Virus record (IMG/VR): IMGVR_UViG_3300001589_000087 | Location: 1 to 31,036 of that record | DNA from: a virus | DNA: 31,036 bases | Direction: 5' to 3' (one strand) | Shown here: positions 22,132 through 25,723 of the stretch, piece after piece | Position numbering within the stretch: the first letter of the stretch is position 1 | Layout of the letters: every line of letters starts with the position of its first letter | Notes under the pieces: model-generated | What the model was told of the DNA's origin: nothing | Seen by the model: the letters and a program-made list of their open reading frames with translations, nothing else | Databases searched by the model: none | Made by a program: the position numbers and the translations under genes

Positions 22132-22764
22132 ATGGATATAGACAAATTAAAGGCTACGATTAGTAAAAAAGGTGGAGTTGCAAAACAAAACAGATTTAAT
22201 GTCTTTTTTACTCCTCCAAAAGTATCGCTTATAAACAAAAATCCTGCTACTTTAATAGGTACTTTAGTTTCGGGTGGTGGTATAAAGAATGTATTTAACG
22301 ACCCAAGAGATATATCACTACTTTGTGAATCAGCTTCATTGCCTGGTCGGCAAATAAATACAACAGAATATCAAAATACTGATCTAACTAAGAAACAAGT
22401 TAATGGTGTTATAGACGAAGACGTTACACTTAACTTTATTCTTACAAATGATTACTATATAAAGAACATATTTGATGAATGGACATCAAACATAATCAAT
22501 TTAGATAAATATAAAATTGGTTATAAAGAAGATTTTACGACTGACGTTGTTATACAACAGATCAATCATAAAAACATACCAATATATGGTGTGAAGTTGG
22601 TAAATGCGTTTCCAACTACTTTAACTGCTGTGACTTTGGATAATAATAGTGAAAATACTATCCAAAAATTCTCAGTGACGCTATCATATGATAAATATGT
22701 AGAAGAAAATGCGCTGGAAAGCGTTGTTTCTACAGCAAGATCAGTGATAGACTTATTATCATAG
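22132..22764 (+). CDS. gp54: Tail-tube-fold protein, probably gp54 baseplate tube initiator
   Basis: The 210-aa protein has the layout of the gp19/gp54 tube fold: GGVAKQNRFNVFFTPPK near the start, LCESASLPGRQINTTEYQ (about 63-80), VIDEDVTLNFILTNDYYIKN with IFDEWTSNIINLDKYKIGY, and KFSVTLSYDKYVEE near the end. The tube protein gp19 is normally beside the sheath gene gp18, which is not here. The opposite operon starts with gp48, so gp54 is the better assignment; gp48 and gp54 together start tube growth. T4 gp54 is 320 aa, so this form is shorter. A divergent tube paralogue is the alternative. It starts 3 bases after the preceding stop, with AGG about 8 bases before the ATG. Confidence 0.72.
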   Translation: MDIDKLKATISKKGGVAKQNRFNVFFTPPKVSLINKNPATLIGTLVSGGGIKNVFNDPRDISLLCESASLPGRQINTTEYQNTDLTKKQVNGVIDEDVTLNFILTNDYYIKNIFDEWTSNIINLDKYKIGYKEDFTTDVVIQQINHKNIPIYGVKLVNAFPTTLTAVTLDNNSENTIQKFSVTLSYDKYVEENALESVVSTARSVIDLLS

Positions 22765-22776
22765 GAGATATAAATT

Positions 22777-23484
22777 ATGGCTTTGCCACAAGTAAATGTT
22801 TCCAAGTATAAAACGGTTATTCCGTCGCTTGGAAAAGAGGTTGAATATAGACCTTACCTTGTAAAAGAGGAAAAAATATTAATGATCGCTATGGAATCTC
22901 AAGATCAACAACAGATTCTTACAGCAGTCAAAGATGTTATTAGCAACTGTATATATGATGATGTGAAAGTAAGCGAGCTAGCAATATTTGATATTGAAGC
23001 TTTATTCTTAGCATTGAGAGGTAAATCAGTTGGTGAAGGCATCGATTTAAAAATGAAGTGTCATGAATGTGAACATATGAATGACATTGAATTAAATATT
23101 AATGATATCAACATCCCAGAAGTGGACAATGAAGATATTACTATAGCATTAAATGATGAAATAGGAATTGTTATGAGATATCCTTCCTTTGAACAGATTA
23201 ATTCTTTCAAAGAAGGTGAATTAGAAACGGTTGATGGAGTATTTAAACTTCTTAAATCATGTATTAAATCAATATATGACGAAGAAGATGTTTATGATGC
23301 TGATAAAGAAACTGATAAGTCACTTAATAACTTTATTGAAAGTTTGTCAAGTGGTCAGTTTCAAAAGGTATCAGACTTTTTTAATGATATGCCATCGCTT
23401 AGATATAACGTTGAATATAAATGTGTTAAATGTGAGAATGAGAATACTACGGAGTTAAGAGGACTTCAAAGTTTTTTTACGTAG
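22777..23484 (+). CDS. gp26: Baseplate hub / tail assembly protein gp26
   Basis: The 235-aa protein starts MALPQVNVSKYKTVIPSLGK, EVEYRPYLVKEEKILMIA and contains IFDIEALFLALRGKSVGEGI, the signature of the T4_baseplate (gp26) family (T4 gp26 is 208 aa). Cys95/Cys98 (CHEC) and Cys216/Cys219 (CVKC) form two CxxC pairs that could hold one zinc ion. GGAG about 9 bases upstream is a good ribosome binding site. The reading frame ends in AGT TTT TTT ACG TAG, and the -1 frame continues for 65 codons from the T run, so this is probably the short product of a frameshift pair. It precedes the tape measure gene, as tail assembly chaperones do in other long-tailed phages. Confidence 0.87.
   Translation: MALPQVNVSKYKTVIPSLGKEVEYRPYLVKEEKILMIAMESQDQQQILTAVKDVISNCIYDDVKVSELAIFDIEALFLALRGKSVGEGIDLKMKCHECEHMNDIELNINDINIPEVDNEDITIALNDEIGIVMRYPSFEQINSFKEGELETVDGVFKLLKSCIKSIYDEEDVYDADKETDKSLNNFIESLSSGQFQKVSDFFNDMPSLRYNVEYKCVKCENENTTELRGLQSFFT
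23472..23478 (+). promoter_or_regulatory. Slippery heptamer for -1 ribosomal frameshift (T TTT TTT)
   Basis: Seven Ts stand in the exact X XXY YYZ register of the gp26 frame (AGT TTT TTT ACG). Two codons downstream the gp26 frame stops at TAG (23482-23484), while the -1 frame runs to 23675. This is the layout of programmed frameshifts in tail assembly chaperone genes. Confidence 0.7.
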
Positions 23485-23675
23485 GCCTCTCACACGATAG
23501 TCTTGTAAACCATTATAAGACTAATTTTGCAATGATGCAGCATCATGGTTATTCATTAAATGAACTAGATAATATGGTGCCGTGGGAGAGGGAGATATAT
23601 ATTTCTCTTTTACAGGATTATATTAAAGAAGAAAACGAACGTATTAAACGGGAAAATAGGAAGTACAACAGATGA
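23478..23675 (+). CDS. gp51: Frameshift extension of gp26 in gp51 position (65 aa, no own start)
   Basis: Reading in -1 from the T run gives FFYVGLSHDSLVNHYKTNFA, MMQHHGYSLNELDNMVPWER, EIYISLLQDYIKEENERIKR, ENRKYNR then TGA. The SLNELDNMVPWERE part looks like a conserved tail-assembly-chaperone helix. No start codon precedes the conserved part, so I read it as the C-terminal half of a 299-aa gp26-51 fusion (234 residues plus 65). Its TGA overlaps the next ATG as ATGA. T4 encodes gp26 and gp51 as separate genes; calling this gp51 rests on position. An independent internal start at the Met-Met pair is the alternative. Confidence 0.72.
   Translation, partial: YVGLSHDSLVNHYKTNFAMMQHHGYSLNELDNMVPWEREIYISLLQDYIKEENERIKRENRKYNR
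23498..23523 (+). other. Possible frameshift-stimulating hairpin
   Basis: TAGTCTT (23498-23504) pairs perfectly with AAGACTA (23517-23523) around a 12-base loop, 19 bases after the slippery run. The spacer is longer than the usual 5-9 bases for stimulators and the stem is AT-rich, so its role is uncertain. Confidence 0.3.
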
Positions 23676-24049
23676 GCAAAGAAGAATTTAGTGGTGACAT
23701 GAGTAGAAATGAGGTCGAAATCGATCTTAATAAATTCATGGAACTCGTAACTGAGAATTCTGCCCTTAAAGCAGAGATCTTACAATTAAAAACAGATGCT
23801 GAACCAGAAAATCCATGGCAAAGATGGATATATCTATCAAACATGGTAGATTCATGGAGAATATTTCCACGCGCATTCTTAAGCGTGTACATATTCTTAT
23901 TGTATTATTGTACAATGTGGTTTATGGACTTACCAAATCCTACTATGGAACAATCCGGATTAATCAGTATCGTAGTTGGTGCTGGAGCTGCTTGGTTTGG
24001 TCTATACGCAGGTACTGCTAAAGATAAAATAAATGGTAGCGGAAAGTAG
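23672..24049 (+). CDS. Two-TM membrane protein, holin-like (125 aa)
   Basis: Residues 1-45 are charged and helical (IDLNKFMELVTENSALKAEI). Two hydrophobic spans follow: FLSVYIFLLYYCTMWFM (about 69-85) and GLISIVVGAGAAWFGLYAGT (about 96-115), joined by a short loop with DLPNPTMEQS. Size, two spans and the GAGAAWFGLYAGT helix resemble small phage holins of the GTA_holin_3TM type, but lysis genes are not usually placed between gp26/51 and the tape measure. It may instead be a membrane protein carried in the tail or used at injection. It overlaps both the frameshift product (ATGA) and is followed directly by the tape-measure ATG. The gene is certain, the function tentative. Confidence 0.75.
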   Translation: MSKEEFSGDMSRNEVEIDLNKFMELVTENSALKAEILQLKTDAEPENPWQRWIYLSNMVDSWRIFPRAFLSVYIFLLYYCTMWFMDLPNPTMEQSGLISIVVGAGAAWFGLYAGTAKDKINGSGK

Positions 24050-25723
24050 ATGAATAAAGATCAAGAGAATCTAGAAGAGCAAACTAGTCGTTTAGACAAG
24101 ATAGTTGAAGTCTTAAAAGAGCAAAAAGAAAAAGATGATGCAGCATTAGCTACGGCTGAACTGCAGAATAAATTGACAATGGTTCAAAGTGGTGCTGCTG
24201 AGAAATTATCAGCTGATCAAAGTGAAGCTATTGAATCTCTTGTACAAGCCTTAAGTGGTAATAAGTTACAAGAACTTGAAACTCAAAAAGAAAACAACAA
24301 ACGCGCTGAAGAAACTCTTGATTTACTTGGTGATATAGTCAAAAATACTCAACCCGGAGCTGGTGGAGATGTAGAGCTAGACGGTATTGGAATGTTAGGT
24401 GCTGGCTTTGTAGTTGCTATTGGCGGAGCTCTTACAGGTTTAGCTCTTGGTGTTGTATTAGGACTGGGCGATTCTCTTAAAGCTTTAGGTAAAATTCTTG
24501 GTAGAGGAATAAAAGGTATAACACCTAAATTTATTTCTACACCTCTTGCTAATCTTGTTAAAAATGTACAGAATTTCTTTAAAGGAATATCTAAATCATT
24601 TAGTACTAGATTTGCTTCTATTGGTAAAACAATAGCAAATACCTTTAAACCTCTAACGAATGGTTTAAAGAATATATCAAATGCATTTAAAGCTGGATTC
24701 TCTGGCTTAAAAACATTTCGATCCGCAACTGGTCAGTTCGGTAAACTTGGATTCTTTGGTAATATAGGTAAGGCGTTAGGTAATGGATTTAGATTTATTA
24801 CGTCAGGTGTTAAAAATATACGTGCAGGATTCCAACAAATATCAGTTATCTTTGGACAGATTACTAAAACATTTAGTGGTGTAGGTAAAGGTACTGGTGG
24901 AATTGGTAAAATTATATCTCAGCTAGGTAATGTATTTAAAACAGTATTTAAAACATTCACTGCTATCGGTAGAACATTAGGTAGATTATTTCTTCCAGTA
25001 CAAATAGTATTAGGAGTCATTGATGGTGTTAAAGGCTTCATCGACGGGTTTAAGAATCAAGAAGGTGGTTTTCTTAAGAAGCTCGTTGCTGGTATAATCG
25101 GTGGTATTGGTGGAGTTATAAAAGGATTGATTGGTATACCATTAGATCTACTGAAAAAAGGTGTAGGATTCATAGCAGGTCTATTAGGATTTGATAACTT
25201 TAAAGAAACCTTAGAAAGCTTTAGTTTCTCTGCACTGATTGGTACTCTATTTGACGGTATTAATAATATATGGCAAGGAATTATCGATTTCTTCGGTAAC
25301 CTTTTCAGTGATCCAGGAGCTACTATATCAGCAGCTTTTAGTAGCATAGGTGATATAATGGGTAATTTAGTTAAATCAATATTAAGAGCAATACTACCAG
25401 ATCCTTCAGCCGATTATGGATTATTCGATCCACGTGGATTAGCAGTTAAAGCAATACCTGATTCTGTATATGAATATGCAGGAATTAATCCAGACACTGG
25501 AGAAGAAGTAGCACCTCCTGTAGAAGCTCAAGCACCTAGTAATGTTGACGGCGAAGAAATGGATATTGTTTCAAGAGAAAACGCAGCTGCAGCTACTGGT
25601 GTAACTAAGGAAGAAGTAGTTAATGTTGTTGGCGGTAATTCTAATCAACAAACAACTAATCAAACTATTATTCAGAATCCTATTAAAATCGATAAGATAT
25701 CCGCTTCAAACGCTAGTAGGTGA
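24050..25723 (+). CDS. gp29: Tail tape-measure-like protein (gp29 position)
   Basis: The 557-aa protein has an N-terminal coiled coil (about 1-100, with EEQTSRLDKIVEVLKEQKEK). A hydrophobic Gly/Ala segment follows (about 113-145, GMLGAGFVVAIGGALTGLAL). Next come many short Phe/Ile/Gly helices spaced by Lys (FKGISKSF, FKPLTNGLKNI, FKTVFKTFTAIGRTL), a second hydrophobic part (about 330-400), and a Gln/Asn-rich tail with NQQTTNQTIIQNPIKI. This is the composition of tape-measure proteins, which set tail length and pass through the tube. T4 gp29 is 590 aa, so the tail would be close to T4 length. The gene follows the gp26/51 frameshift pair, the classic position. No muramidase or peptidase motif is visible. 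Confidence 0.75.
   Translation: MNKDQENLEEQTSRLDKIVEVLKEQKEKDDAALATAELQNKLTMVQSGAAEKLSADQSEAIESLVQALSGNKLQELETQKENNKRAEETLDLLGDIVKNTQPGAGGDVELDGIGMLGAGFVVAIGGALTGLALGVVLGLGDSLKALGKILGRGIKGITPKFISTPLANLVKNVQNFFKGISKSFSTRFASIGKTIANTFKPLTNGLKNISNAFKAGFSGLKTFRSATGQFGKLGFFGNIGKALGNGFRFITSGVKNIRAGFQQISVIFGQITKTFSGVGKGTGGIGKIISQLGNVFKTVFKTFTAIGRTLGRLFLPVQIVLGVIDGVKGFIDGFKNQEGGFLKKLVAGIIGGIGGVIKGLIGIPLDLLKKGVGFIAGLLGFDNFKETLESFSFSALIGTLFDGINNIWQGIIDFFGNLFSDPGATISAAFSSIGDIMGNLVKSILRAILPDPSADYGLFDPRGLAVKAIPDSVYEYAGINPDTGEEVAPPVEAQAPSNVDGEEMDIVSRENAAAATGVTKEEVVNVVGGNSNQQTTNQTIIQNPIKIDKISASNASR

Follow-up and report, generated by a model that had tools for sequence, protein, structure and literature searches.

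A predicted −1 frameshift at the gp26 locus of T4-like phages that may yield short and long tail assembly chaperones

We analyzed a 31,036-nucleotide stretch of viral DNA (hereafter the window; IMG/VR record IMGVR_UViG_3300001589_000087), which carries a T4-type gp26 gene. All features at this locus lie on the plus strand.

22132–22764, plus strand: upstream neighbor, a tail tube-type protein (phrog_3629, E 7e-33; phrog_45, E 5e-32; Pfam gp19, E 2e-6, just under the cut-off)
22777–23484, plus strand: gp26, the predicted short product (TAC-N), 235 aa (PF12322 T4_baseplate, E 3.5e-65; phrog_150, E 4.8e-70; AlphaFold2 model)
23472–23478, plus strand: slippery heptamer T_TTT_TTT, in the gp26 register and conserved across loci
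23482–23484, plus strand: TAG codon that terminates the short product, one codon past the heptamer
23472–23676, plus strand: −1 frame extension, 67 codons plus TGA, the predicted gp51-type C-terminal part of the long product (TAC-NC) (phrog_634, E 4.9e-28; matches in ~650 phage records; dN/dS 0.05–0.09 past the gp26 stop)
22777–23676, plus strand: predicted gp26-51 fusion, 299 aa, junction ...GLQSFF-YVGLSHD..., deduced from the slip site and colinear with T4-type gp51
23498–23523, plus strand: 11-bp hairpin of doubtful role, 19 nt downstream of the heptamer (pairing and covariation, 41 distinct sequences)
23532–23537, plus strand: ATGATG, the first −1 frame start codons (codons 21–22), where a separate small gp51 could begin
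23672–24049, plus strand: 125-aa ORF that overlaps the extension at ATGA (phrog_10198, a family of unknown function, E 1.3e-19)
24050–25723, plus strand: 557-aa protein, probably the tape measure (matches to several PHROG tape measure families, the strongest at E 4.5e-15)

PHROG profile matches thus give the order tail tube, gp26, extension, small ORF and tape measure. This is a chaperone-type position, with tail tube families upstream of gp26 and tape measure families downstream; as a correction to the first-pass annotation, the tape measure gene does not come immediately next, since the 125-aa ORF intervenes. The C-terminal half of this ORF is hydrophobic, and similarly placed small ORFs are found in Mosig, Melnitz, RHph_I46 and phiM12. 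The gp26 protein scored 220 bits against PF12322 (curated cut-off 24.5), and the Pfam search returned no match between it and the lambda, P2 or HK97 chaperone families. The family matched by the −1 frame product, phrog_634, is labeled 'baseplate hub assembly catalyst' (gp51).

The 3′ end of gp26 reads AGT TTT TTT ACG TAG, placing a T7 run in X_XXY_YYZ register ahead of the in-frame TAG, as was first described. Translation of the −1 frame from 23472 gives FFYVGLSHDSLVNHYKTNFAMMQHHGYSLNELDNMVPWEREIYISLLQDYIKEENERIKRENRKYNR, with a stop at 23676, and slippage at the run would produce a protein of 299 residues, 234 from gp26 and 65 from the extension. The reported ATGA overlap was also borne out, with the ATG of the next gene at 23672. 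The same T7 run is present in a 96%-identical contig from another metagenome (L005), and it is therefore not the sequencing error that had been raised as a concern. About 5.9 in-phase T_TTT_TTT heptamers are expected per codon-shuffled window in this AT-rich genome; the heptamer alone was therefore rejected as evidence. The window genes checked contain only one, as if the motif were avoided elsewhere.

The arrangement is shared by other gp26 loci. Among the first 84 loci read, which came from public viral contigs, three isolates and the window itself, every one carried NNT TTT TTY and had its extension in the −1 frame (84/84). In a total of 228 distinct gp26 loci, 204 had NNT TTT TTN together with a −1 frame extension, and it is this conservation across loci, not the heptamer by itself, that lifts the slip site above chance. 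The heptamer was TTTTTTT in 109 of the 204, TTTTTTC in 92, TTTTTTG in two and TTTTTTA in one; the base after TTTTTT varies among T, C, G and A, as a slip site permits. Twenty of the other 24 loci, the Ackermannviridae-type loci and Cygsa01, have a −1 frame extension but a different site; S-SCSM1, RaK2 and a pair of T4-type loci make up the last four.

The 204 loci were thinned to 41 representatives, one per 60% gp26 identity. In these, a T precedes the two TTN codons regardless of the amino acid encoded (Ser, Asn, Asp, Ala or Arg). Against background codon usage, with the representatives treated as independent, the wobble T before the heptamer has P ~10^-11.5 and the use of TTT as first Phe codon P ~10^-6.7, values that shared ancestry makes indicative only. 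Both describe codon choice within heptamer-bearing loci, from which the representatives were drawn, and the unselected count is 204/228. The site and the −1 extension are present in the named isolates P-SSM2, Mosig, Melnitz, nt-1, RHph_I46, phiM12, S-SM1, MED4-213, P-RSM6, KVP40, phiAS5, LPCS28, Milchi, XG4, P-SSM7 and Aeh1, and when cyanophage and pelagiphage gp26 loci were aligned, a check suggested at the outset, the T run and the −1 frame proved to be kept. The viral contig scans with KVP40 gp26 and Rhizobium gp26 were narrow, yielding two loci and one locus, respectively.

Two individual loci merit separate description. In S-SCSM1, ~11 nt are inserted after the site, so that the extension falls in the third frame and has an ATG of its own (L172:2481-2516); it is the only phage of the one-gene layout in which we saw such an insertion, reflecting either a sequencing error or loss of frameshifting. 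In the jumbo phage RaK2, gp26 carries CGT TTT TTC close to its end, and an MPVTERD motif occurs in the −1 frame (L181:3161-3400). We do not claim RaK2 as a member, as the extension model found no match in its −1 frame.

We consider it probable, at roughly 0.88, that −1 frameshifting at the gp26 locus yields a short and a long tail assembly chaperone. Most ribosomes would terminate at the TAG at 23482 and release the 235-aa TAC-N, and a minority would slip back one base on T_TTT_TTT, where tRNA-Phe could re-pair in both sites with no mismatch. The slipped ribosomes would read 65 more codons and make the 299-aa TAC-NC with its gp51-type C-terminal segment. If the analogy with lambda G/GT holds, the short form may coat the tape measure protein while the long form, the less abundant of the two, recruits tail tube subunits, and both would depart before the virion is complete. 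This reading draws on the slip site, its conservation, coding selection, homology to T4 gp26/gp51, gene order and fold resemblance; that the shift occurs, how often it does, what the two forms bind and that they act as chaperones we infer.

Known systems offer close parallels. Lambda gpG/gpGT, P2 E/E+E′ and HK97 gp13 likewise comprise a short and a long form from one locus, the long one arising when ribosomes shift to the −1 frame close to the end of the first ORF, and lambda-type chaperone loci likewise lie between the tail tube and tape measure genes. The slip site of lambda is G_GGA_AAG, not a T run. The gp26 protein is also larger than the lambda-type chaperones, with a second domain after about residue 95. 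According to a review, lambda gpG and gpGT act when the tail tube is assembled around the tape measure protein (PMC5009743).

Homology to T4 bears on this reading. T4 gp26 and gp51 are both PF12322 members, the same family as window gp26. The gp26 profile (12–235) aligned with T4-type gp51 (6–200), and the extension profile (2–55) with T4-type gp51 (200–252; E 6e-11); because the two align colinearly, T4 gp51 corresponds to gp26 plus the extension in one frame. The first-pass annotation described gp26 and gp51 as separate T4 genes; gp51 itself carries a gp26-like domain and the extension segment. The extension does therefore occur in frame with a gp26-type sequence, an arrangement that had been named as contrary to a frameshift, but it does so in what appears to be a duplicate with its own gp26-like N-terminal domain. 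Unlike the window locus, T4 has two separate genes on opposite strands and lacks the slip site, its gp26 ending AAA GAG TTC TTT GAG TTA CTA TAA.

The same segment clarifies earlier descriptions of gp51. In PMC3037559 (2010), Aeh1 is reported to lack gp51, and cyanophage and vibriophage gp51 is read as a shortened independent gene missing its first ~200 aa. That cyanophage gp51 is the same segment as the window extension, and since T4 gp51 equals gp26 plus the extension, the missing ~200 aa would be supplied by gp26. In Aeh1, the extension lies in the −1 frame after GAT TTT TTC GAC TGA (L302:2260-2440; extension model E 8e-19). A frameshift would thus explain both the 'shortened' cyanophage gp51 and the 'missing' Aeh1 gp51. 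The −1 extensions of Aeh1 and of phiAS5 (L177:3202-3381) are not annotated as gp51.

The AlphaFold2 model of gp26 has a pLDDT of 91. For residues ~1–95, the best PDB matches were 3fgx, 2ob9, 3klu and 5ir0 (Z 7.8, 7.3, 7.2 and 5.5; next row 3.1), all below Z 8, a range in which similarity can reflect a common arrangement; Foldseek E-values for the model exceeded 0.1 and were non-significant. 2ob9 is the HK97 tail assembly chaperone, 3klu is YqbN and 5ir0 is a PICI-like element protein; 3fgx and YqbN we take to be chaperone-like phage proteins. The modeled N-terminal fold of gp26 thus weakly favors tail assembly chaperones as its best match.

The alternative that survives best, although we judge it improbable, accepts the frameshift and makes gp26 and the fusion structural parts of the hub instead of chaperones. 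Databases label gp26 'baseplate hub', and the T4 literature, as summarized in PMC3004832, is split on whether gp26 is present in the hub. According to the same text, however, T4 gp51 is needed for assembly yet absent from the particle. Gene order and the fold resemblance also argue for chaperones, as does a 2022 paper whose title announces the identification of tail assembly chaperones of T4-like phages (Vladimirov, Gautam and Davidson, Virology 2022;566:9-15). The proposal that gp26 and gp26-51 are the T4-type counterpart of lambda G/GT is supported by gene order and homology and, weakly, by fold.

The −1 frame is also under coding selection. Past the gp26 stop this frame is single-coding, and extension codons 6–20, which precede the first ATG of the window, have a dN/dS of 0.07; the value is 0.05 for codons 21–47 and 0.21 for gp26 itself. 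Because codons 6–20 are so constrained, a protein appears to be selected upstream of any usual start. Consistently, 25 of the 41 representatives have no ATG, GTG or TTG before extension codon 21. In the window, no start codon occurs in −1 frame codons 1–20, and to this extent the first-pass statement that the frame has none stands; it fails at codons 21–22, the ATGATG at 23532, just upstream of which we found no Shine-Dalgarno-like purine-rich stretch.

These data make it very unlikely that the extension is a separate small gene (gp51), translated from an internal ATG or through re-initiation past the gp26 stop, with no fusion made. Deposited records do annotate it so, and such a gene could use the ATGATG of the window, the stop-start overlaps such as TAATG in nt-1, KVP40 and Cygsa01, or the own ATG of S-SCSM1 in its third frame. 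It would leave unaccounted for, however, the conservation as protein of the codons ahead of the ATG, the many representatives with no early start and the retention of the slip heptamer, and T4 gp51 has the same segment fused to a gp26-like domain. The programmed −1 frameshift fusing gp26 to a gp51-type extension, as originally proposed, is instead what the 204/228 loci and the dN/dS of 0.07 support at the level of sequence.

We further looked for RNA signals near the site. In the P-SSM2-type clade, an 11-bp hairpin lies 5 nt after T_TTT_TTC, with 93.8% of cells paired, a figure biased upward in that the set was chosen after the hairpin had been seen and ~20 loci of another subclade were omitted. 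Less affected by the choice of set is its covariation, 0.166 versus 0.088 when shuffled (0/500 shuffles), with slid controls at most 0.063. One pair of this hairpin is UA (32), AU (11) or GC (11), and the encoded residue switches among Glu, Val and Ala. Extension amino acids were seen to change in step with the hairpin pairing in P-SSM2-type cyanophages (L001:4013-4043 and its relatives L216-L281).

The hairpin of the window clade had 78.5% of cells paired and a covariation of 0.175 versus 0.141 when shuffled (slid controls ≤0.081; 41 distinct sequences). We rejected the window's own hairpin as a stimulator, given this modest covariation and a 19-nt spacing too far for a classical stimulator. 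An internal Shine-Dalgarno stimulator upstream of the site was also sought, and anti-SD pairing there was no stronger than in synonymous recodings.

That the same fusion arises by transcriptional instead of ribosomal slippage is highly improbable: a T7 homopolymer could let RNA polymerase add or drop a base, but in many relatives the run is just T6, with C, G or A next, in exact X_XXY_YYZ phase; transcriptional slippage usually requires a longer run, and one clade adds an RNA hairpin at a spacing typical of ribosomal frameshifting.

The Ackermannviridae show a variant of this layout. In Vi01- and Kevin-type phages, the extension lies in the −1 frame under selection (codons 5–15, pN 0.026, pS 0.356), mostly without a start before codon 15. 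Their sites read GAR ATT TTC ATY TAA or CAG GTT TTC ATC TAA and are not X_XXY_YYZ (L176:3242-3300, Vi01; L182:3212-3270, Kevin; L198-L215). P-site re-pairing on ATT TTC or GTT TTC would be mismatched. The Ackermannviridae site recalls the GTTTTT motif reported for Vandenendeviridae (PMC12846349).

Copy number separates the T4-type phages from the rest. We found one PF12322 gene in 20/20 records of other layouts and two in T4, ZHF, RB43, 44RR and a Krischvirus; those of RB43 lie in tandem before gene 25. In an unrooted tree of 40 sequences with long deep branches, T4-type gp26 and gp51 were split from the one-gene forms by a branch with support 99/90, which favors a single duplication as the origin of the T4-type gp26/gp51 pair. 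A scenario that we offer tentatively, at rather less than even odds, is that the single frameshifting gene is probably ancestral and persists in Kyanoviridae, in KVP40-like, Aeh1-like and Rhizobium lineages and in others, accompanied by stimulatory hairpins that differ between clades. The single gene would have been replaced once, by duplication into gp51 (long) and gp26 (short), before T4, RB43, 44RR and the Krischvirus split, with the Ackermannviridae on a non-canonical ATTTTC/GTTTTC site.

Frameshifting in T4-like phages has probably been reported already. PMC12846349, in its citing text, refers to Vladimirov et al. for poly-T slip sites in T4-like TAC-N genes, and judged by this text and the title of the 2022 paper, the TAC-N/TAC-NC described there are probably the same genes as the window locus. 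By its title, the paper points to T4-like phages using a mechanism that is not frameshifting, presumably with reference to T4 itself. Possibly new here are the breadth of the site, the covariation in the hairpin, the contrast in gene copy number and the variant site of the Ackermannviridae. The 2016 review describes G-T frameshifting as widely conserved in long-tailed phages 'except T4' (PMC5009743). Collectively, our results point to G-T-type frameshifting in much of the T4 superfamily, and T4 gp26 and gp51 look like its duplicated remains.
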